Source: a virus
Strand: one strand, 5' to 3'
DNA: 30,727 nucleotides
IMG/VR virus record: IMGVR_UViG_3300034073_004624
Location: 1-30,727 of that record
Made by a program: the position numbers and the translations under genes. Below, piece after piece: positions 15,181 through 27,062 of the stretch (the stretch's first letter is position 1; each line of letters starts with the position of its first letter). The notes beneath the pieces are model-generated. The model was given only the letters and a program-made list of their open reading frames with translations, did no database searches and had not been told where the DNA came from.

Positions 15181-17346
15181 ATGAAACCGGTTCTAATCGT
15201 AGAAAATTCAACTTCTTCTCTTCTCAGAGAGAATAATAGTGGCAGAAAAGATTATGTGTTAGGTGGTACTTTTACAGAGTTTGGTGTTAAAAACCGTAAC
15301 GAAAGAGTATATACAGCAGATAAATTTCTTCCAGCATTAGATGAACTTAATGAGAGAATGAAAACGCTTGGTGCAGTTTACGGAGAATTCGATCATCCAG
15401 ATGTTTTTGATACATCTTTATCAAGAGCATCACACGTTATCACAAAGGCAGAATACTTAAAAGAATCCAATAAAGTTACTGGTGAAATCAGACTACTTAG
15501 TACATATTGGGGTAAAGAAGCTAAGTCTTTGGTAGATGATGGATGTCCTGTCTTCGTATCTTCAAGAGCGGCTGGTGTTACAGAGTCTGATGGTTCTGTT
15601 TCTCTAAAAAAATTGTTCACATATGACATCGTTGCTGACCCAGGTTTTGCTTCTGCAAAAATGAGTGTTAAAAGTCTTAACGAGTCACTTGGATACAACC
15701 CAAAATCTAACTTTAGGATATATGAAATGTCCGATGAGTCCAAAATAAATGAACTATTCAATATGAATAAAGATGAATTTGTAACAAAAAAACAATTAAC
15801 TGATTACTCTAAATATTTAGTTAATGAATTAGCTTCTACAAAGAAAGAAGTTAAGAGTGCAATTTCAAAAGGGAATATGAATCCTAAGAAATTGGAGCAG
15901 TTACTTGAATACTACGAAGAATTAAATAAGACAAACGGTCAAGTTGTTAAATACTTAGACTATTTGGCTGAGAAAGTACAAGTAATGGTAAATGAAAACA
16001 AGTCTTTAAAAGCGACTACTGATAAACTTATTAAACACAATGATTATTTAGCAGAGAATTTAGAAAAAGCGGTAAACTATTCTGAATACTTAGCAGAAAA
16101 TCTTGACAAAAACATTGAGTATTCTGAATACTTAGCAGAAAACTTAGATAGAAATATTTCTTATTCTGAGTATATCGCTGAAAATTTAGATAAAAACATT
16201 TCTTATTCTGAATACTTAGCAGAAAACTTAGATAAGAATATTGCTTACTCTGAGTATATCGCAGAAAACTTAGATAAGAATATCGCTTATTCTGAGTATA
16301 TCGCAGAAAACTTAGACAAAAACATTGGATATTCTGAATATTTAGCTGAGCATGTTGACAATTCAATTGCTTATTCTGAATATTTAGCTGAGCATGTTGA
16401 AGGTAACATCGCTTACTCTGAATACATTGCTGAACATTTAGATGATAACATTGCTTATTCTGAGTATATCGCAGAAAATCTTGATAAATCAATTTCTTAT
16501 CAGTCACTAATTACTGAAAAATTAAATGGTACAAGATTAAACGAAAATAATGATCATGACGCTTTACCTGGAGTAAATGTTGTTGGTATTGAAAATGTTG
16601 AAGATGCTGACAATGATGATAATTGTGGACCAGTTAAAAATAATGATGGAGACGATGATGATGCTGACTTAGCTGGTATCAGTCATGGTAATCCAGAAAA
16701 TAAATGGAATAAAGAAAATAATGATGGAGACGGTGATGCTGATGGAGATGCTGATGCTGATGCTGATGGAGACGGAGCTTATGGACATGATGGTGCACAT
16801 AACAACGCTCACTTAGAAGGTAACTCTGATTCTGAATTATCAAAATCTATTAATAAATTAATTGAAGAAGCTAAAAAACGTAAAGTTTCTGAAACAACTG
16901 ACTTGAATTTCTTAAAGTTCTTAAACAAGTCACAAGTTGATAGCTTTTATGCACTTACAGAGAGTGAACAAGAAACTGTTAAACTTCACATAAACGAAAG
17001 AAGTTATTTCACACAAAAAGAAGTATTGTCTCTAATTGCAGAAGCTTTGTCTACAAAGAATGAATCTATCGAAGAAAGAGTAATCAGATTGATGCCTGAA
17101 AACATTAAGCCAATCTGGAATCAGTTAAATGAGTCTTCTAAAAAATCAGTGCTTTCACAAGCTAGATTATATCCAGAAGATGTATTAAAAACTGAAAATC
17201 AAGTTGAACATTTCTGGTTAACCAGAAATCTCAAAAAAAATGAGTCTGTAACTAAAAAGTTAGTAGCACACGAAAGTTTAATACAAGAAGATAAACTTTC
17301 AGATAAAGATGTGAAAGCTATTATGGAAAGATTCAAAACAATTTAA
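15181..17346 (+). CDS. Prohead protease (gp21-like) fused to scaffold/core protein (gp22-like)
   Basis: 721 residues. Residues ~25-165 are a T4 gp21-type serine protease: VKNRNERVY, then GEFDHPD with catalytic His about 72, and VFVSSRAAG with Ser 127 or 128. The rest looks like an internal scaffold. Charged helices come first, then eleven 14-residue repeats of type YSEYLAENLDKNIA (286-439), a very acidic Asp/Gly/Ala segment (about 475-545) and a helical C-terminal domain. In T4, protease (gene 21) and scaffold (gene 22) are separate. Each repeat contains LAE or IAE, the T4 protease cleavage consensus (L/I)xE; IVE8-N9 and LRE17-N18 near the N-terminus are candidate self-processing sites. It lies between portal and capsid genes, exactly where 21 and 22 belong. 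Protease identity is confident; scaffold role is inferred from position and composition. Confidence 0.85.
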   Translation: MKPVLIVENSTSSLLRENNSGRKDYVLGGTFTEFGVKNRNERVYTADKFLPALDELNERMKTLGAVYGEFDHPDVFDTSLSRASHVITKAEYLKESNKVTGEIRLLSTYWGKEAKSLVDDGCPVFVSSRAAGVTESDGSVSLKKLFTYDIVADPGFASAKMSVKSLNESLGYNPKSNFRIYEMSDESKINELFNMNKDEFVTKKQLTDYSKYLVNELASTKKEVKSAISKGNMNPKKLEQLLEYYEELNKTNGQVVKYLDYLAEKVQVMVNENKSLKATTDKLIKHNDYLAENLEKAVNYSEYLAENLDKNIEYSEYLAENLDRNISYSEYIAENLDKNISYSEYLAENLDKNIAYSEYIAENLDKNIAYSEYIAENLDKNIGYSEYLAEHVDNSIAYSEYLAEHVEGNIAYSEYIAEHLDDNIAYSEYIAENLDKSISYQSLITEKLNGTRLNENNDHDALPGVNVVGIENVEDADNDDNCGPVKNNDGDDDDADLAGISHGNPENKWNKENNDGDGDADGDADADADGDGAYGHDGAHNNAHLEGNSDSELSKSINKLIEEAKKRKVSETTDLNFLKFLNKSQVDSFYALTESEQETVKLHINERSYFTQKEVLSLIAEALSTKNESIEERVIRLMPENIKPIWNQLNESSKKSVLSQARLYPEDVLKTENQVEHFWLTRNLKKNESVTKKLVAHESLIQEDKLSDKDVKAIMERFKTI
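16036..16497 (+). repeat. Eleven 42-bp (14-residue) scaffold repeats
   Basis: Eleven in-register copies encode a consensus YSEYLAENLDKNIA (the first is HNDYLAENLEKAVN; the eleventh ends DKSIS). All eleven keep (L/I)-A-E; eight are followed by Asn and three by His. Codons vary between copies, so the protein sequence, not the DNA, is being conserved. Confidence 0.9.
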
Positions 17347-17424: not shown

Positions 17425-19119
17425 ATGTCACACATTAGAATAGACAAACAAAAAGCAGTTAAGAAATGGGCTCCAGTGTTGGAGAACATGGGTGTAACTG
17501 GTGAGAGAGTTGACTGGATGGCTGAATACGCTGAGTTCCACTCAATTAATGAAAATGCATACGTAAACGCTTCTAACGTAGCGGGTATGGGTGCTGTTTT
17601 TAATCCAACTGTAGGTACATTAGCTGGTAGCCCAACATTAGGTGGAGCACTTGCTGGTTCTGGAGATGTAGGTCAAAACTTACTTCCTGTAGCTATGAAA
17701 ATTGCAGCTCAAACAATCGGTTTAGATTTAGTAGCTGTAAAACCTTCTCCAGGTCCAAAAATTGACTTACTTTATATCGATTTCCGTTATGACGATACTC
17801 GTGAAGGTAACTTAGATGAGAGACCACAAGTTTTCAAATTTAATCAAACTACTTGGTTATCTGCTATTCAAGCAGCAATCAGAGCTGATTTAACTGTTGC
17901 TGGTGGTGCTCCTGCTGCTATTAGCGAATCAACTGGTGGTTTATCAAACGGTAGAGTATGGTATAATATCAATGATGGTAGTGTAACTTATACTGATCCA
18001 GGTTCTGGTTCAAAAGCTAACTTAGTTGAGTTCTTAGGTTTCTCTCGTATTGATGGTTATCCAATGTTCAGAGCTTACAGACAAAATAATACAGCTCATA
18101 CAGCTACTAACCCAGCTGGTGGTTCTACATTATGGTCATTTGATGCTACTAGAAATACATTCAATGCAACACAGTCAATGACTGATCAAATCGTATTAAT
18201 CGCTGGTGTTACTGCTTCGGGTGGTGCTGTTGAATTAGTATCTGCTCTTGAAGATCATATCCCAGGTTTCTCTGCAAACTGGACATCTGCATCTTCTGGA
18301 AGTGCTGCTGGTTCTTATCCAATGTCTCGTCAAGATGATGATGATACATATGCAGGTGTTATTGGTCCTAAGATTTCTTCTAAAACTATCGCAGTTGGTA
18401 CTATTGAAGTATCTTCAGCTTTAAGAAGAACTGAAATCGAAGATATCAAAGCTAACACAGGTATGGATATCGTTCAAAAAATGGAATCTATCTTAGTTAA
18501 TGAATTATCTCAAACAATCTCTAAGCAAATTGTTGCTAAGATTTTTGAAATGGGTGCGTTAAACAGATCTACTGCTCCTTTAAGAAGTGGTGCATCTATC
18601 TTTGACTTAGATACAAATTATGCATATGGTGCTTCTAGTCCGGGTGGTGAAACTACACACGCGGTTCAACGTAAGTTAATCACTAAGATTGCTCACGCTT
18701 CTAACTATATCGCAACTGAAGGTCGTGTTGGTCCTGCTCAATACCTTATCACAAACGGGGGTCTTGCAGCTGCTTTATCTGATATTGCTGGTTATACAAT
18801 TAACCCTTTAAAATCTAAAATGAATACACAAGGTCAACTTTACCCAGTTGGTTCAATCGGTGATATTTCAATTTATGTTGACCCATATATGAAGTACAAC
18901 GATAACAGAATCGTTTTAGGTCGTAAAAATAATCCTGACCAACCAGGTATCATTTTCGTTCCTTACTTAATGGCTCAGTCTATTTCGGTTATCTCTGAAG
19001 CTACATTCGCTCCAAGAATGTTGTTAAGAAGCCGTTACGCTGTAGCAGAAGTAGGTTGGTTCCCACAAAAACAGTTCATGCAAATCAATGTAACTGATGG
19101 ACAAGGATTTCTTAACTAA
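17425..19119 (+). CDS. Major capsid protein, T4 gp23-like
   Basis: 564 residues, slightly longer than T4 gp23. The N-terminus KAVKKWAPVLENMGV matches the start of T4 gp23 (LLNKWKPLLEGEGL). SINE41-43 before Asn 44 is a candidate propeptide cleavage site of the (L/I)xE type, ahead of YVNASNVAGMG, which resembles T4 mature-region sequence. The C-terminal half has the gp23-like stretches TIEVSSALRRTEIEDIKANTG and YLITNGGLAAALSD. An insertion-like segment (about 170-310, Gly/Ser/Thr/Ala-rich) may be a surface domain. Codon use differs from its neighbours, with many CGT arginine and GGT/GCT codons instead of AGA/GGA, as expected of a very highly expressed gene. Strong promoter before, strong terminator after. 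Confidence 0.93.
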   Translation: MSHIRIDKQKAVKKWAPVLENMGVTGERVDWMAEYAEFHSINENAYVNASNVAGMGAVFNPTVGTLAGSPTLGGALAGSGDVGQNLLPVAMKIAAQTIGLDLVAVKPSPGPKIDLLYIDFRYDDTREGNLDERPQVFKFNQTTWLSAIQAAIRADLTVAGGAPAAISESTGGLSNGRVWYNINDGSVTYTDPGSGSKANLVEFLGFSRIDGYPMFRAYRQNNTAHTATNPAGGSTLWSFDATRNTFNATQSMTDQIVLIAGVTASGGAVELVSALEDHIPGFSANWTSASSGSAAGSYPMSRQDDDDTYAGVIGPKISSKTIAVGTIEVSSALRRTEIEDIKANTGMDIVQKMESILVNELSQTISKQIVAKIFEMGALNRSTAPLRSGASIFDLDTNYAYGASSPGGETTHAVQRKLITKIAHASNYIATEGRVGPAQYLITNGGLAAALSDIAGYTINPLKSKMNTQGQLYPVGSIGDISIYVDPYMKYNDNRIVLGRKNNPDQPGIIFVPYLMAQSISVISEATFAPRMLLRSRYAVAEVGWFPQKQFMQINVTDGQGFLN

Positions 19120-19186: not shown

Positions 19187-19603
19187 ATGAAGTATATCAA
19201 ATATTTTGAAGGTAAAAAAGATAAATTTCCTAATCTTAAAAAGATTGAAAAGGATGAATTTGTAATATATGTAGGTGGTGATGCTAAATCTAATGACTAT
19301 CTCACCTTCAATATGGCTAATGATGATGATATTTGGTTACATGCTATGGGTCTTCCAGGAAGTCATGTTGTTATCAAAATTAAAAGTTCCCAGAATATAC
19401 AAGAAAAAACTTTACCTACAGATGTAGTCTTAAGATTTGCAGCTGAGTTGGCTAAAAAACACAGTAAAGCGCCTAAAGATCAACCCTGTGATGTTAGATG
19501 GTGCCAAAGAAAGTTTGTCTATAAAACACCAAATATGAATACAGGTGAAGTTGGAATAGAAAAGCAAATAGAAATGGATCCTACCAAAAAGATTACAATT
19601 TAA
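19187..19603 (+). CDS. Stand-alone NFACT-R (DUF814) domain protein
   Basis: 138 residues. VGGDAKSNDYLTFNMA, then DDIWLHAMGLPGSHVVIK (about 47-64; DIWLH 48-52, GSH 58-60), then AAELAKKHSKA (85-95) and RKFVYKTPNMNTGEVGI reproduce the order of the NFACT-R domain of RqcH/Rqc2/NEMF proteins. In the family those proteins bind split 50S or 60S subunits carrying stuck nascent chains and add C-terminal Ala tails. The NFACT-N, helix-hairpin-helix and coiled-coil parts are absent, so tailing by this protein alone is unlikely; RNA or ribosome binding is the plausible role. The N-terminus MKYIKYFEG resembles short leaders on other proteins of this phage. It is followed 20 nt later by a peptidase gene and then, after one more gene, by a tmRNA. 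Confidence 0.8.
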   Translation: MKYIKYFEGKKDKFPNLKKIEKDEFVIYVGGDAKSNDYLTFNMANDDDIWLHAMGLPGSHVVIKIKSSQNIQEKTLPTDVVLRFAAELAKKHSKAPKDQPCDVRWCQRKFVYKTPNMNTGEVGIEKQIEMDPTKKITI

Positions 19604-19605
19604 TT

Positions 19606-19614
19606 TAATATATA
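19606..19614 (+). promoter_or_regulatory. Late-promoter box upstream of peptidase gene
   Basis: TAATATATA overlapping the stop region of the NFACT-R gene, 8 nt before ATG 19623. Confidence 0.5.
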
Positions 19615-19622
19615 CTATTATT

Positions 19623-20963
19623 ATGGCTGAAATTAAACCCATCTTCACAGAAGAATTACAAAAAATTCTAAAAGAATTAGAATCAGAAAATAACTATGTT
19701 GCTTTTGAGTTGATGTGGATGTCTGAACCAGATTCTAAATTTCATAACGGATTAAGAATATCAAAAGTAGATGTTTCTAAGCAGGATTATTGCTTTGATG
19801 TTACTATTGATGGTAAAACACATCCAATGAAAATTGGAAAGTTTATAAGATACTTTTTAGCTAATATTATAAAGGATAATGAGGCTGTTGAATTTTCAAA
19901 ACTTTATAATAATCTTAAAAAAGGTGAAAAGATACAATCCGGAACTCCTATTACTATTGATAAGTTTTCTTACAATCCAAGAGATGTTAAAGCAACTTTT
20001 CTTTCTTTGGTTACAAAAACTTATCCTCATGGACATGAAGAAGAAGTATTACAATTTTTACCGGGACTTAAAAAAGATCAATTTGGTAACTACTATAAAA
20101 TAATAGGTAATATACAACCTCAAACTATGTTTACCTCGCATTTAGACACCGCAGATAGACAGCAAAAAGTTACAAAACTTTTTTCTATGGTTGAAGATGG
20201 TGAAGAATATATTTATACTGATGAAAGTACTATATTAGGCGCTGATGATAAGTCTGGTGTTGTGGTGATGTTATATATGATGACATATAATATACCAGGT
20301 CTTTATTATTTCTTTATTGGTGAAGAAAGAGGTGGAATCGGTTCTAATGCATTGGCTTCTATTTTTGACCAAATTGATTATTTGAAGAATGTCAAAAGAT
20401 GTATATCTTTTGATAGAAGAAACTATCACTCTGTTATCACAAGTCAATTAGGAAGAACTTGTTGTTCTAATGAGTTTGGAAATGCACTTTGTGATGAATA
20501 TAATAGAAATGGATTAAGTTTATCTTTAGATAATACAGGTATTTACACAGATTCTGCATCTTTTATGGATGATATTAGAGAATGTACTAATATATCTGTT
20601 GGTTATTTTAATGAACATACTGGAAAAGAATATCAAAATATAACTTACTTAAAGAATCTTTGTGAAGCTTCTGTTAAGGTTAATTGGAATTCTTTGCCTT
20701 CTGTTAGAAAGGCTGGATTAAATGAGGAAGTTATGAAAAAACACAGATTGCTTATCCAAGATATAAAAAAATCTGTTTTTGACTTAGAAACAAAAATAGT
20801 TGGTGAAGAAGGTAGAGTGTTTATCAGAGTTGATTTAGATGAGACTGACGTTGACGCTATTTCCAATGGCTTAAACATGGTTGATAGTATTCTTACTAAA
20901 CATAAAATTAACAACAATGATGTAGTATTTACCAATACTTACATGAAAATAGAATTAAGATAA
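19623..20963 (+). CDS. M20/M28-family-like zinc metallopeptidase
   Basis: 446 residues. The catalytic part starts near residue 120. SHLDT (172-176) supplies the first His and Asp, GADDKSG (206-212) the bridging Asp, GEERGG (233-238) the catalytic Glu and a zinc-ligand Glu, SFDRR (about 262-266) a further Asp, and NEHTGKEYQN a late His. This is the full metal-ligand order of di-zinc M20/M28/M42 peptidases, typically amino- or carboxypeptidases acting on short peptides. An N-terminal ~118-residue extension (VAFELMWMSEPDSKF) is unrelated to the peptidase core and unidentified. No signal peptide, so cytoplasmic. The next gene begins 1 nt after the stop. Peptidase class is secure; subfamily and substrate are open. 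A role in trimming rescued nascent peptides is only inferred from neighbours. Confidence 0.8.
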   Translation: MAEIKPIFTEELQKILKELESENNYVAFELMWMSEPDSKFHNGLRISKVDVSKQDYCFDVTIDGKTHPMKIGKFIRYFLANIIKDNEAVEFSKLYNNLKKGEKIQSGTPITIDKFSYNPRDVKATFLSLVTKTYPHGHEEEVLQFLPGLKKDQFGNYYKIIGNIQPQTMFTSHLDTADRQQKVTKLFSMVEDGEEYIYTDESTILGADDKSGVVVMLYMMTYNIPGLYYFFIGEERGGIGSNALASIFDQIDYLKNVKRCISFDRRNYHSVITSQLGRTCCSNEFGNALCDEYNRNGLSLSLDNTGIYTDSASFMDDIRECTNISVGYFNEHTGKEYQNITYLKNLCEASVKVNWNSLPSVRKAGLNEEVMKKHRLLIQDIKKSVFDLETKIVGEEGRVFIRVDLDETDVDAISNGLNMVDSILTKHKINNNDVVFTNTYMKIELR

Positions 20964-20964
20964 T

Positions 20965-21435
20965 ATGAATCTAAAAAAGTTTAATCAATTTGAAAAATAC
21001 GAAAGTCCTTGGGATGAAGAAGATGAGTCATATTATAACGATGATCAATATCTTTTTGGAAGACCATATCATTCAAATAAAGACAAAGGCAAATCTGAAG
21101 AAGAAGAGGAGGAAGATGAGTATGAAGATATAGATGATGATCAGAATGAGGATATTCAACACTTGATGGATTTATTGAGAACCTATTTTGAAAACCAAGG
21201 TGTAGAAGTAGATATAGAAAATAAAGGATTAGATATCACAATATCAACTTATCTTAATAAAGTAGAGAAATTAAAAAATATCATTAAAGTTTTTAACATA
21301 GTTAAAAAAGTTAAAAAAGATATTTTACCACAATATGAATCTGAGTTTGAACTATGGGAAACAAAGGATAAAAGTCCTGTGCTTTATTTTAGTTTTTACT
21401 ATGAAGGTGATTTCGATGATGAAAAACCATTCTAA
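20965..21435 (+). CDS. Acidic hypothetical protein with capsid-targeting-like N-terminus
   Basis: 156 residues, not recognised. The N-terminus LKKFNQFEKYE resembles both the start of the 132-residue protein before the portal and the T4 capsid-targeting segment. A central run of Glu and Asp (about 43-63) is followed by a folded-looking C-terminal domain (IQHLMDLLRTYFENQG, VEVDIENKGLDITI, YLNKVEKLKNIIKVF) and a beta-type end. It starts 1 nt after the peptidase stop, so the two are co-translated. It could be an internal or core protein, or a partner of the peptidase; the sequence does not decide. Confidence 0.55.
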   Translation: MNLKKFNQFEKYESPWDEEDESYYNDDQYLFGRPYHSNKDKGKSEEEEEEDEYEDIDDDQNEDIQHLMDLLRTYFENQGVEVDIENKGLDITISTYLNKVEKLKNIIKVFNIVKKVKKDILPQYESEFELWETKDKSPVLYFSFYYEGDFDDEKPF

Positions 21436-21456
21436 ACTTTTCTTAATTTTTTAATA

Positions 21457-21465
21457 TTATATATA
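21457..21465 (+). promoter_or_regulatory. Late-promoter-like box of tmRNA
   Basis: TTATATATA, then CTTT, then G1 of the tmRNA at 21470. Mature tmRNA cannot begin upstream of its own transcription start, so if this box is used, transcription begins no more than about 5 nt downstream of it. Confidence 0.55.
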
Positions 21466-21469
21466 CTTT

Positions 21470-21845
21470 GGGGAAGTGATAGAATAGATTCGCAGAGTGA
21501 GATCAATTATGCAGACATCGGTTGGTAAAATATCCGATTAATAAATTAGGTTACATCTGTCTTAAATGGCAAAACAAATGAAGTAGGAACCCGTGAAGAT
21601 TTAGTAGCGGCTCTACAAAACAACCTGTTCTTGGTAGAAGAACTAGAGACAGCTTAACAAAGCATCTCTAAAAAATTCTCCAACTGAATCACAACAGTTC
21701 ATAAAATAGTGAAACCTGAGTTGTTAGAATGGCGGGTAATTCAACTAACTATTTTGTGAGTTTAGAAAAACTTTCTAAGTCTGTGAATGAATAGTTTATT
21801 TTAACTGAGGAAGACACCAGGGGCGGTTCCTGGTCTTCTCCACCA
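21470..21845 (+). ncRNA. ssrA: Transfer-messenger RNA (tmRNA)
   Basis: 376 nt. The 5' GGGGAAG (21470-21476) pairs fully with CTTCTCC (21835-21841), followed by A and an encoded CCA. GATAGAATAGATTCGCAG matches the conserved 5' tRNA-like region of ssrA. TTCGCAGA (21489-21496) pairs with TCTGTGAA (21780-21787), giving the long helix joining the 5' and 3' domains. ATCGG/CCGAT (21517/21534) fits the first pseudoknot; TTAGAAA/TTTCTAA (21762/21772) a late hairpin. The tag frame probably starts at GGC 21568 (GKTNEV, compare Bacteroidetes tags starting GETN or GENN) and stays open for 29 codons to TAA at 21655, ending LETA rather than LAA. It frees stalled ribosomes with host SmpB (no smpB here). Odd: the T-arm stem ACCAGG/CCTGGT closes a loop GGCGGTT without the usual TTCRA. 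Confidence 0.88.
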
Positions 21846-21850
21846 CATTA

Positions 21851-21875
21851 AAAGTCCACTTTGGTGGACTTTTTT
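21851..21875 (+). terminator. Intrinsic terminator of tmRNA
   Basis: Stem AAAGTCCAC / GTGGACTTT, loop TTTG, followed by TTT, 5 nt after the encoded CCA end. Confidence 0.85.
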
Positions 21876-21896
21876 AGTTTAAAACATATAAATTAA

Positions 21897-22379
21897 ATGA
21901 TAGATAAATTTGACGGTAAATACCGATTCTTAAGTAACTTTTATCCCTGTAAAATAGAACATCAGGGAATCACTTATCCAAGTGTGGAACATTATTATGT
22001 TGCAATGAAAGTCAATGATGAACAACTTATTAATGGTAAATATTACACTCCTGGTGATTTTAGAGAAATGATAAGTAGAGTAAAAGAAGCTGCCTTAGTT
22101 AAAAAAATTGGAAATAAAATTAAATTAAGATCTGACTGGGATAATAAAAAGTTAGATGTAATGAATTGGGCAATTAGAGAAAAATTCAAAGATGAGAATC
22201 TGAAGGAATTGTTACTTGGTACCGGTGATCAGGAACTTATTGAGGGAAATTTTTGGAAGGACTTTTTCTGGGGAGTTTGTAACGGTAGGGGCCAAAATCA
22301 TTTAGGTAAAATCTTAATGATAGTTAGAGATGAGATAAGAGGAATCAAAAAGACTGGATTGGAAGAGTTTCTTAAATAG
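21897..22379 (+). CDS. NADAR-family protein (YbiA-like ADP-ribose / N-glycosidase fold)
   Basis: 160 residues, the usual length of a single NADAR domain. FDGKYRFLSNFYPCKI (5-20), ITYPSVEHYYVAMK (25-38), RSDWDNKKLDVMNW, LLLGTGDQELIEGNFWKD and FFWGVCNGRGQNHLGKILM follow the family order, with the Glu of VEH and the Trp/Gly-rich end intact. NADAR proteins include YbiA and the partners of DarT-like toxins, which remove ADP-ribose from guanine bases in DNA. The family is also tied to NAD metabolism. In a phage it could undo host ADP-ribosylation defences or handle NAD breakdown products; this is inference. The gene follows the tmRNA terminator, has CATATAAATT upstream and lies 49 nt before the methylase gene. 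Confidence 0.85.
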   Translation: MIDKFDGKYRFLSNFYPCKIEHQGITYPSVEHYYVAMKVNDEQLINGKYYTPGDFREMISRVKEAALVKKIGNKIKLRSDWDNKKLDVMNWAIREKFKDENLKELLLGTGDQELIEGNFWKDFFWGVCNGRGQNHLGKILMIVRDEIRGIKKTGLEEFLK

Positions 22380-24692: not shown

Positions 24693-25220
24693 ATGATAAA
24701 CTCTAAGCCAAATAATTCAAATTACCATCAAGGTAATTATATACCAAAAAATAAAGATAAAGTCATCAAATTAAATAATTATGGTGGTGTTCACTTCAGG
24801 TCTTCTTGGGAAAAGAAAATTATGACCTGGCTTGATTACAATACTTCTATCACAAAATGGGGATCTGAATGTTTACGGATACCTTATCAAATGACACATT
24901 TTGATAATGGTGATACAAAAATTAAAGAACATTCTTATTATCCGGACTTTTACTATGAGATGAGACTTCCGGATGGTAGTTTAAGACAGGTTGTAGTTGA
25001 GGTTAAGCCAATGAAAGAGTATAAAATGGTTCAGAGTCTAAATGAAGGTAGTTTACAAGTTCCTCAGAATGGTGCGAAAAAACTTAAGAACTTTGAATAC
25101 GACTTAAAGATGGCTTATAAGAACAAGCAAAAATGGGAAACAATGATAAACTGGTGTAATAAAAAGGGTTACGATTTTATCATCATAACAGAGGAACATC
25201 TTAAAAAGTTCAACTTATAA
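24693..25220 (+). CDS. Head-completion protein, T4 gp4 (gp50)-like
   Basis: 175 residues, near the length of T4 gp4. YHQGNYIPKNKDKVI, then GVHFRSSWEKKIMTWLDYN, WGSECLRIPYQM, YYPDFYYEMR, VVVEVKPMKEY and a C-terminal KWETMINWCNKKGYDFIIIT with final TEEHLKKF follow the gp4 family order. PDFYY...EVK is a PD-(D/E)xK nuclease-type active site (Pro-Asp, then Glu-x-Lys). In T4, gp4 acts after DNA packaging to make heads competent for tail joining. The last 11 bases overlap the end of the reverse-strand membrane-protein gene. Confidence 0.85.
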   Translation: MINSKPNNSNYHQGNYIPKNKDKVIKLNNYGGVHFRSSWEKKIMTWLDYNTSITKWGSECLRIPYQMTHFDNGDTKIKEHSYYPDFYYEMRLPDGSLRQVVVEVKPMKEYKMVQSLNEGSLQVPQNGAKKLKNFEYDLKMAYKNKQKWETMINWCNKKGYDFIIITEEHLKKFNL

Positions 25221-25925: not shown

Positions 25926-27062
25926 ATGAAAATTAAACTTGAATACATTTGGTTAGATGGATCTAATCCCCAACAATTGCGAAGCAAAACTAAAATAACA
26001 AATCAACAGCATGGATTGGATGCAACAAAATATGATATCTGGTCTTTTGATGGTAGCTCAACAAATCAGGCTAAATCCGGTAAAGGAAAAAATACAGATT
26101 GTTTACTAAAACCAGTTTTTGTATCTGATGATCCATTCAGAGGAAGTCCACATAAATTGGTCCTTTGTGAGGTTCTTACTCCAGAAGGAAATCCACATCC
26201 TTCAAATCACAGAAGATCATTAGAAGCACTTTTAAACGAGTTGAATCTTGGAGGTGCAGATAAGTTTGCAGGAACTGATTGGTCAAATATATATGAATCC
26301 TTCAAAAAAGATTCGCCTTGGTTTGGATGGGAACAAGAATATACACTAACTCATAAACCAAATTCACCATTTTCGGCTGGTATTGGAATTCCTTTAGGAT
26401 TCTCATCAGACTATCACAATCCTATTAAGACACCTCGTCCTCAAGGCGATTATTATTGTGGTGTGGGTGCTGATACGGTTGTAGGTAGAGAAATCGTTGA
26501 GGAGCATATGGATAAATGTATAGAAATTGGTCTATGTATTTCTGGAATTAATGCTGAGGTGTTATTAGGTCAATGGGAATATCAAATTGGACCGGTTACT
26601 GCATTGAACGGATCTGATCAATTATGGATATCTCGATATATTCTTCAGAGAGTCGCTGAAAAGCACAATATAAATGTGTCTTTGCATCCAAAACCAATTA
26701 AAGGAGATTGGAACGGAACTGGTTGTCATGTCAATTTCTCAACAAAAGAAATGAGAGAAAAAGGTGGTTTATCTTTAATAAAAGAAACTATGGAAAAACT
26801 TAAAGAAAATCATAGAAATCATATCGAAGTTTATGGTCTACATAATGAAGAAAGATTGACTGGTGAACACGAGACCTCTGGTATTAATGATTTTAGCTTT
26901 GGATTTTCAACTCGTGATACTTCTATACGTATACCAGCTCAATCAATTATTGATGAAAGAGGATATTTTGAAGACAGGAGACCAGCCTCAAACTGCGATC
27001 CATATTTAGTTGCAGCTAGAATGTTAAAAACTGTTTACTCTGAAGTAAATCAAGAGGCTTAA
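25926..27062 (+). CDS. Glutamine synthetase, type II (GSII)
   Basis: 378 residues, full length for GSII. Makes glutamine from glutamate, ammonia and ATP. The N-terminal beta-grasp region has LEYIWLDGS, LRSKTK and WSFDGSSTNQAKS. The catalytic part has WFGWEQEYTL, YYCGVGADTVVGREIVEEH, GINAEVLLGQWEYQIGP, GDWNGTGCHVNFST, RLTGEHET, STRDTSIRIPA and FEDRRPASNCDPY. Metal-binding Glu residues, the His of the NGTGCHVN segment and the Arg residues of the phosphate site are all present, so it should be active. The type I adenylylation loop is absent, as expected for GSII, so regulation would differ from enteric GS. It is monocistronic, with an A-rich leader and strong terminator. An auxiliary metabolic gene that could raise glutamine supply for nucleotide synthesis during infection; host origin is likely but not tested. 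Confidence 0.95.
   Translation: MKIKLEYIWLDGSNPQQLRSKTKITNQQHGLDATKYDIWSFDGSSTNQAKSGKGKNTDCLLKPVFVSDDPFRGSPHKLVLCEVLTPEGNPHPSNHRRSLEALLNELNLGGADKFAGTDWSNIYESFKKDSPWFGWEQEYTLTHKPNSPFSAGIGIPLGFSSDYHNPIKTPRPQGDYYCGVGADTVVGREIVEEHMDKCIEIGLCISGINAEVLLGQWEYQIGPVTALNGSDQLWISRYILQRVAEKHNINVSLHPKPIKGDWNGTGCHVNFSTKEMREKGGLSLIKETMEKLKENHRNHIEVYGLHNEERLTGEHETSGINDFSFGFSTRDTSIRIPAQSIIDERGYFEDRRPASNCDPYLVAARMLKTVYSEVNQEA

Follow-up and report, generated by a model that had tools for sequence, protein, structure and literature searches.

The stretch of DNA considered here, a virus fragment of 30,727 bases from IMG/VR (record IMGVR_UViG_3300034073_004624, hereafter the window), comes from a Mahaphage-like huge phage, the host of which is probably a Bacteroidota bacterium, and covers a late region with head genes. 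It carries a T4-type head set (portal gp20, a protease/core protein and a gp23-like capsid protein), and downstream of it a stand-alone NFACT-R protein, a peptidase, an acidic protein, a transfer-messenger RNA (tmRNA), a NADAR-domain protein and a Dam-like methylase. The nearest named relatives of the window are the uncultured huge phages LR745206 (634,780 bases) and LR756502 (642,428 bases), whose head genes are 78-81% identical to those of the window at the DNA level; Bacteroidetes hosts have been predicted for five genomes larger than 634 kb, which were assigned to Mahaphage (Al-Shayeb et al. 2020, PMC7162821). Further related sequence stretches are cited below by labels (L070, L088 and so on), L270 being LR756501, a phage of 735 kb.

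Taken together, homology and conserved pairing identify the RNA downstream of the acidic protein as a genuine tmRNA, though of a derived type, which would be part of a phage trans-translation system. The stretch is 70-75% conserved in relatives, where it occupies the same genomic place; a 19-base pattern taken from its 3' region led to 49 IMG/VR stretches, with the RNA present in 49/49, and profile searches yielded about 60 distinct full-length copies of related RNA. Rfam returned nothing at gathering score for the window, whereas among the related RNAs a tmRNA is called by ARAGORN in L088, L181 and L170 and by Rfam in L070 (68.2 bits) and L088 (50.4 bits). Since these are homologous RNAs found at the same place, the RNA of the window is a tmRNA as well. 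Its ends pair as an earlier note, made from the sequence alone, had claimed (GGGGAAG with CTTCTCC, then ACCA), and the coordinates proposed there for the gene proved exact to the single base (Table 1). A second, canonical tmRNA was sought in LR745206 and LR756502 and not found; matches there were short or sub-threshold and lay mostly in tRNA-rich regions, and ARAGORN returned no tmRNA for either genome. Matches to other RNA families in the window at low threshold were at chance level, and folding of the window RNA as a single sequence gave a z of -2.56, which is not used as proof.

Table 1. Coordinates in the window of the tmRNA, its parts and the neighbouring genes, with the evidence for each
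Feature	Position	Strand	Evidence
Major capsid protein (T4 gp23-like), which anchors the conserved gene order on its upstream side	17425..19119	+	PF07068, E 5.8e-28
Stand-alone NFACT-R protein, 138 aa	19187..19603	+	PF05670, RqcH profile match, AlphaFold/Foldseek
Putative capsid-targeting leader of NFACT-R, MKYIKYFE	19187..19210	+	Leader pattern in relatives; genome-wide enrichment; low predicted local distance difference test (pLDDT)
PepT/M28-like di-zinc peptidase	19623..20963	+	phrog_4191, E 2.6e-67; PDB tripeptidase/PepT
Acidic protein with a putative leader; N half acidic and disordered, C-terminal domain alpha/beta	20965..21435	+	Fused to the peptidase in L169, L170, L176
tmRNA, 376 nt including encoded ACCA	21470..21845	+	Homology to ARAGORN/Rfam-called tmRNAs; alignment, pair counts
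Acceptor stem, 5' strand GGGGAAG (G3 pairs with U70)	21470..21476	+	48/48 fully paired, 48/48 G3:U70
First stem of pseudoknot 1, ATCGG/CCGAT	21517..21538	+	99% of cells paired, both-sided changes
Reading frame of the tag, with GGC as resume codon, peptide GKTNEVGTREDLVAALQNNLFLVEELETA and TAA as stop	21568..21657	+	Open in 48/48 relatives
T arm ACCAGG-GGCGGTT-CCTGGT, non-canonical loop	21816..21834	+	All 6 stem pairs change on both sides
Acceptor stem, 3' strand CTTCTCC, and ACCA end	21835..21845	+	Pair counts
Intrinsic terminator hairpin after the tmRNA	21850..21876	+	Sequence; hairpin in relatives
NADAR-domain protein, downstream neighbour	21897..22379	+	PF08719, E 7.8e-26

Structure counts were made on an alignment of 48 tmRNA sequences. 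When every possible 4-bp stack in these sequences was scanned without bias, the acceptor stem and helix H2 ranked first, and H2 and pseudoknot 1 (PK1) are both present as covarying helices. Both-sided changes occur in 46 of the 75 pairs of the named structure, and the covariation score is 0.345, as against 0.162 in shuffled alignments (0/500 shuffles) and at most 0.103 in slid ones. All seven acceptor-stem pairs form in all 48 sequences, G3:U70 being invariant while neighbouring positions vary.

The elbow of the molecule is where the sequences depart from the standard form. A canonical T-loop is found only in L088 (TTCGAGT), L181 (TTCGAAT) and L070 (TTCGATT); intermediate loops (TTCGTTA, TTCGTC, AGCGATA) also occur among the 48 relatives, and 37 of the 48, including the window (GGCGGTT), have loops resembling GGCAGTA. 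In this derived loop U54 and U55, which are the usual sites of 5-methyluridine and pseudouridine, are absent, and alongside the T-loop change the D-loop goes from AGG to AGA, with loss of G18. It is because the T-loop has been rewritten, from TTCGANT to GGCAGTA, that ARAGORN and Rfam miss the tmRNA of the window. Since the loop itself stays similar while its 6-bp stem varies on both sides, it is a conserved element and not a product of decay.

Judging from its flanks, the tmRNA would form its own transcription unit: a TAnnTTTG element, which we take to be the Bacteroidota-type promoter consensus, lies upstream of the RNA in 34/47 relatives (5% in shuffles), and a terminator-like hairpin lies 3' of it in 43/47. 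Within the RNA, the tag frame follows TAAAY or TAACC in 48/48 sequences, stays open for 24-30 codons (29 residues in the window) and then ends in a stop codon. A crude dN/dS (nonsynonymous to synonymous ratio) over 31 tags of 29 codons each, based on pair counts that are not phylogenetically independent, came to 0.39 for the tag frame (0.30 over codons 1-19), as opposed to 0.99 and 1.52 in the other two frames, both of which are interrupted by stops in 31/31; on this measure the tag frame is under purifying selection. The Bacteroidota tags that we sampled have 9-10 aa (n=8), and the apparent tags, read by eye, of two further huge phages have 24 aa (636 kb phage) and about 33 aa (735 kb phage). 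Since tmRNA tags with anything from 8 to 35 residues have been described (PMC3968760), the length of the phage tag is not in itself new. A search for copies of the tag elsewhere in the phage proteome gave no match.

SmpB is encoded elsewhere in both complete relatives (LR745206, 634 kb; LR756502, 642 kb), in the 636 and 735 kb phages, and in six IMG/VR contigs that carry the RNA. The SmpB proteins of four phages with the derived loop share fixed changes relative to nine others, in which these sites are constant or nearly so: K for R before KLLL, N for G further on, and the loss of a near-constant N, changes that would fit co-adaptation with the rewritten elbow. In overall comparison with standard one-piece tmRNA (RF00023) and SmpB, the phage RNA has in common the G3:U70 acceptor stem, H2, PK1, a resume codon after U-A, a tag frame with a stop, the segment CTAAGC(C/T)TGT and the presence of SmpB in the same genomes, whereas it differs in its GGCAGTA-like T-loop (TTCRANY being replaced in 37/48), in the loss of D-loop G18, in its tag of 27-30 aa, where the sampled Bacteroidota have 9-10 aa, and in being missed by ARAGORN and Rfam.

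The protein encoded just downstream of the capsid gene is, as the earlier note had it, a stand-alone NFACT-R domain: PF05670 matches residues 21-125 of its 138 aa (E 3.5e-14; 53.7 bits, cut-off 29.8), and a profile made from six relatives matches, among solved structures, RqcH (1.5e-20), the streptococcal fibronectin-binding protein (FBPS) and CCDC25 (3e-10), the same three that Foldseek finds with the AlphaFold model (pLDDT 87; predicted template modelling score 0.80). Residues D48, W50, H52, G58 and H60 show no variation across 42 homologues, and four related records each contain this one NFACT-R match and no other. Among cellular sequences, the nearest ones found come for the most part from Bacteroidota (Pseudarcicella, 44% identity, with an NFACT gene encoding 512 aa; Cytophagales NFACT proteins are included) and from Firmicutes, and an NFACT protein match was obtained in 153 of 198 sampled Bacteroidota genomes, the open frames among the matches listed being mostly of about 550 aa. 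Within the 138-aa protein NFACT-R alone was matched; it is a captured R domain, devoid of HhH, of the coiled coil and of NFACT-N, to which the DR motif belongs. The DR motif that selects tRNA-Ala sits in NFACT-N of RqcH (PMC8373112), and a phage protein without the tRNA-Ala-selecting parts is therefore incapable of Ala-tailing by itself. For this reason, and since two huge phages have tmRNA and SmpB without NFACT-R (see below), the proposal that the phage controls both tagging routes for stalled chains is not supported. To call NFACT-R the part of RqcH that handles obstructed large subunits was too strong, given that tRNA-Ala selection lies in NFACT-N and that in RqcH-50S structures NFACT-R, near the A-site finger, is relatively poorly resolved (PMC8012679).

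NFACT-R begins with what may be a capsid-targeting leader. Nearly all of its relatives have the pattern M-K-x-x-x-F-x-E/[SG] and begin in the manner of MIKKFNSFNE/SKKDKFPN, residues 1-10 of the model have low pLDDT, and cleavage would be expected after E8; the acidic protein begins with a similar leader, and the peptidase is without one. The leader pattern was drawn from LR745206, where it occurs in 42/895 N-termini versus 2/2899 internal methionines, and was then applied unchanged to LR756502, with 36/923 versus 5/3056 (p 1.8e-18). Dozens of otherwise different proteins of LR745206 (L017-L048) and LR756502 (L273-L305) have a leader like MKYLKSYKIFES or MIKKYLQFIKEA. The internal proteins of T4 have a 10-residue capsid-targeting sequence that is cleaved at L/I-x-E (PMC9026906), and T4 IPI-III and Alt resemble the phage proteins in having a basic/aromatic leader of about 10 residues, ending in (L/I/F/Y)-x-E, beside gp20/21/23-type head genes; they differ in that the T4 rule is L/I-x-E and in that cleavage and packaging of the phage proteins are predicted. 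The leader-bearing proteins, with their T4-like (L/I/F)-x-E site, may form a large set that is packaged and ejected; NFACT-R would be packaged in the capsid and ejected, and the acidic protein may be as well. In LR756502 the expected start of the NFACT-R gene (L002, 15404-15430) is without ATG, and an ATT codon after AAGGAG would give the same leader, MIKFDKFNE.

NFACT-R and the RNA are both present at 56/56 peptidase loci with sufficient flanking sequence, and the major capsid protein, NFACT-R, peptidase, acidic protein and tmRNA occur together in 56/56 testable relatives. However, because NADAR and the Dam-like methylase also remain near the block, and because the 56 loci were picked by peptidase homology and are related to each other, this is conserved gene order, which does not specifically prove that the genes function jointly. 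A clear tmRNA (65.2 bits) is present in the 636 kb phage and a weaker, divergent match (21.1 bits, below the cut-off and without an ARAGORN call) in the 735 kb phage, each with SmpB, and in neither was NFACT-R found, so that NFACT-R is not needed for tmRNA. Of the ribosome-rescue module that the earlier note had postulated, what holds is that a rescue RNA and a lone NFACT-R co-occur in related phages, with phage SmpB in every complete relative examined; joint action of the two is a hypothesis.

The peptidase and the acidic protein are a better supported functional pair, since in L169, L170 and L176 they are fused in one open reading frame of about 611 aa. The former, a di-zinc enzyme of PepT/M28-like type, matches phrog_4191 ("peptidase") and resembles PepT in the PDB, its M28 match being sub-threshold, and has the candidate metal ligands H173, D208, E234, E235, D264 and H332, positions which we assign by presumed equivalence with PepT and which are invariant in six relatives. 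A role as dedicated recycler of tagged peptides, suggested earlier, was rejected as weak, given that each genome contains 4-5 paralogs of this family, which turns up in 375 phage records. The acidic protein matched no family, and no fold relative in the PDB below E 0.001.

We consider it highly probable that the phage has a working rescue system composed of the derived-type tmRNA and its own SmpB, with NFACT-R as a separate factor. The RNA would be processed, alanylated by the host alanyl-tRNA synthetase (AlaRS) via G3:U70, bound by phage SmpB and brought into ribosomes stalled on broken mRNA, where the 29-residue phage tag, with its small non-polar last residue, would be added to the stalled chain; the tagged chain would then be degradable and the ribosome reusable while host mRNA is destroyed. 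The T-loop and D-loop G18, normally part of the SmpB-bound elbow, have been rewritten, and phage SmpB would have changed to match. NFACT-R would be a factor that binds RNA or 50S; its T4-type leader probably directs it into the capsid, from which it would be ejected early. Several points weigh against this reading. ARAGORN called no tmRNA in the window, and the best local score of RF00023 there was 9.6 bits over 26 bases (cut-off 47), so that of the original tmRNA call the identity stands, by way of the homologues, and the covariance-model match does not. Contacts between D-loop and T-loop have been described as required for SmpB binding and function (PMC3968760), and the altered loop could mean reduced tmRNA function. 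In the window copy, moreover, the spacer between the AT-rich promoter-like element and the RNA falls about 30 nt short of its length in relatives. The SmpB evidence comes from relatives, the window's own genome being known as a 30.7 kb fragment, the four changed SmpB proteins may mark one clade only, and the leader is a pattern in sequences.

One may also consider that the RNA is a decoy which captures SmpB or AlaRS and thereby blocks host trans-translation, for which the tmRNA of phage DS6A, reduced to the tRNA-like domain, is a precedent (PMC4131195), and with which a T-loop deviating from the form normally required for SmpB function would agree. One would hardly expect a decoy to keep a tag frame open in 48/48 under purifying selection, with the resume context (TAAAY or TAACC) and stop codon retained in all, in phages that encode their own SmpB, and we regard this scenario as very unlikely. 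That the RNA is a decayed, non-functional remnant would account for the derived T-loop and for the lack of a match to standard models, yet compensatory changes throughout, G3:U70 in 48/48, selection on the tag and the retained terminator and promoter make it extremely improbable. An orthogonal pair, in which the tmRNA with its rewired elbow is read mainly by phage SmpB and its 29-residue tag leads to a fate of the phage's choosing, while ejected NFACT-R drives host RqcH from its place as infection begins, is in our view unlikely.

Alternatively, NFACT-R, peptidase and tmRNA could be unrelated passengers of a conserved late block, with NFACT-R binding nucleic acid in the virion in the manner of CCDC25, a solved NFACT-R protein that binds DNA. 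This is a serious possibility, although we lean against it. In its favour, NADAR and the Dam-like methylase are also kept in the block, and capsid-type leaders are present on NFACT-R and the acidic protein and absent from the peptidase; against it, the invariance of the NFACT-R motif residues in the 42 homologues is what one would expect of a retained cellular-type interaction. Another reading is that the protein is a dominant negative that sits at the RqcH site on 50S, stops host Ala-tailing and diverts stalled chains to the phage tmRNA. By profile and fold the phage domain is the R domain of RqcH, the NFACT proteins matched in Bacteroidota are mostly full-length among those listed, Cytophagales NFACT proteins are among the closest cellular relatives found, and the leader suggests early delivery. 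However, the main contacts of RqcH are made through NFACT-N, the coiled coil and the M domain, NFACT-R being the poorly resolved part (PMC8012679, PMC8373112), and the two other huge phages do without NFACT-R, which leaves this explanation rather doubtful.

Phage-encoded tmRNA is also known from Bacillus phage G, from mycobacteriophages and from the huge phages of Al-Shayeb et al. 2020, in the last case reported together with SmpB (PMC4131195, PMC7162821), and those surveys relied on ARAGORN and related searches; ARAGORN gives no tmRNA for LR745206 and LR756502. RqcH, Rqc2 and NEMF share with the phage protein an NFACT-R with the D-I-W-L-H ... G-S-H motif, and differ from it in their NFACT-N, HhH, coiled coil and M domain. 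CCDC25, too, is a small protein with NFACT-R as its principal folded domain, and NFACT-type genes have been reported in algal viruses, the prasinoviruses; compared with CCDC25/Jlp2 and the prasinovirus proteins, that of the window is of phage origin, has a putative capsid leader and is distant in sequence (PMC11467894). The features that appear to be new are an elbow so rewritten that the gene escapes detection, the long conserved tag, the matching changes in SmpB, and an NFACT-R with a leader among phage head genes. Since tmRNA genes can lose the T-loop consensus on which finders depend and yet remain under selection, counts of phage trans-translation are probably too low. The loops grade from TTCGAAT to GGCAGTA, and with the SmpB sequences of the same contigs they form a natural experiment in the recognition of the tmRNA elbow by SmpB. 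The long conserved tags pose the testable question of how a tag of its own benefits a phage, and a lone NFACT-R with a capsid-type leader offers a route to asking whether phages act on RqcH-type quality control.

Some neighbouring genes deserve mention. NADAR domains strip ADP-ribose in some anti-phage toxin systems, and the NADAR protein directly 3' of the tmRNA may be a counter-defence gene. Upstream, positions 15181-17346 encode a prohead-protease protein followed by many tandem repeats of the YSEYLAENLDKNI type, probably a protease and scaffold in one chain. Further downstream lie a conserved protein with a TnsA-like endonuclease domain (24693-25220; PF08722, 1.8e-14) and, close to it, a phage-encoded homologue of glutamine synthetase (25926-27062; PF00120, 7e-18), which shows 66-70% identity to its counterparts in the two complete relatives.

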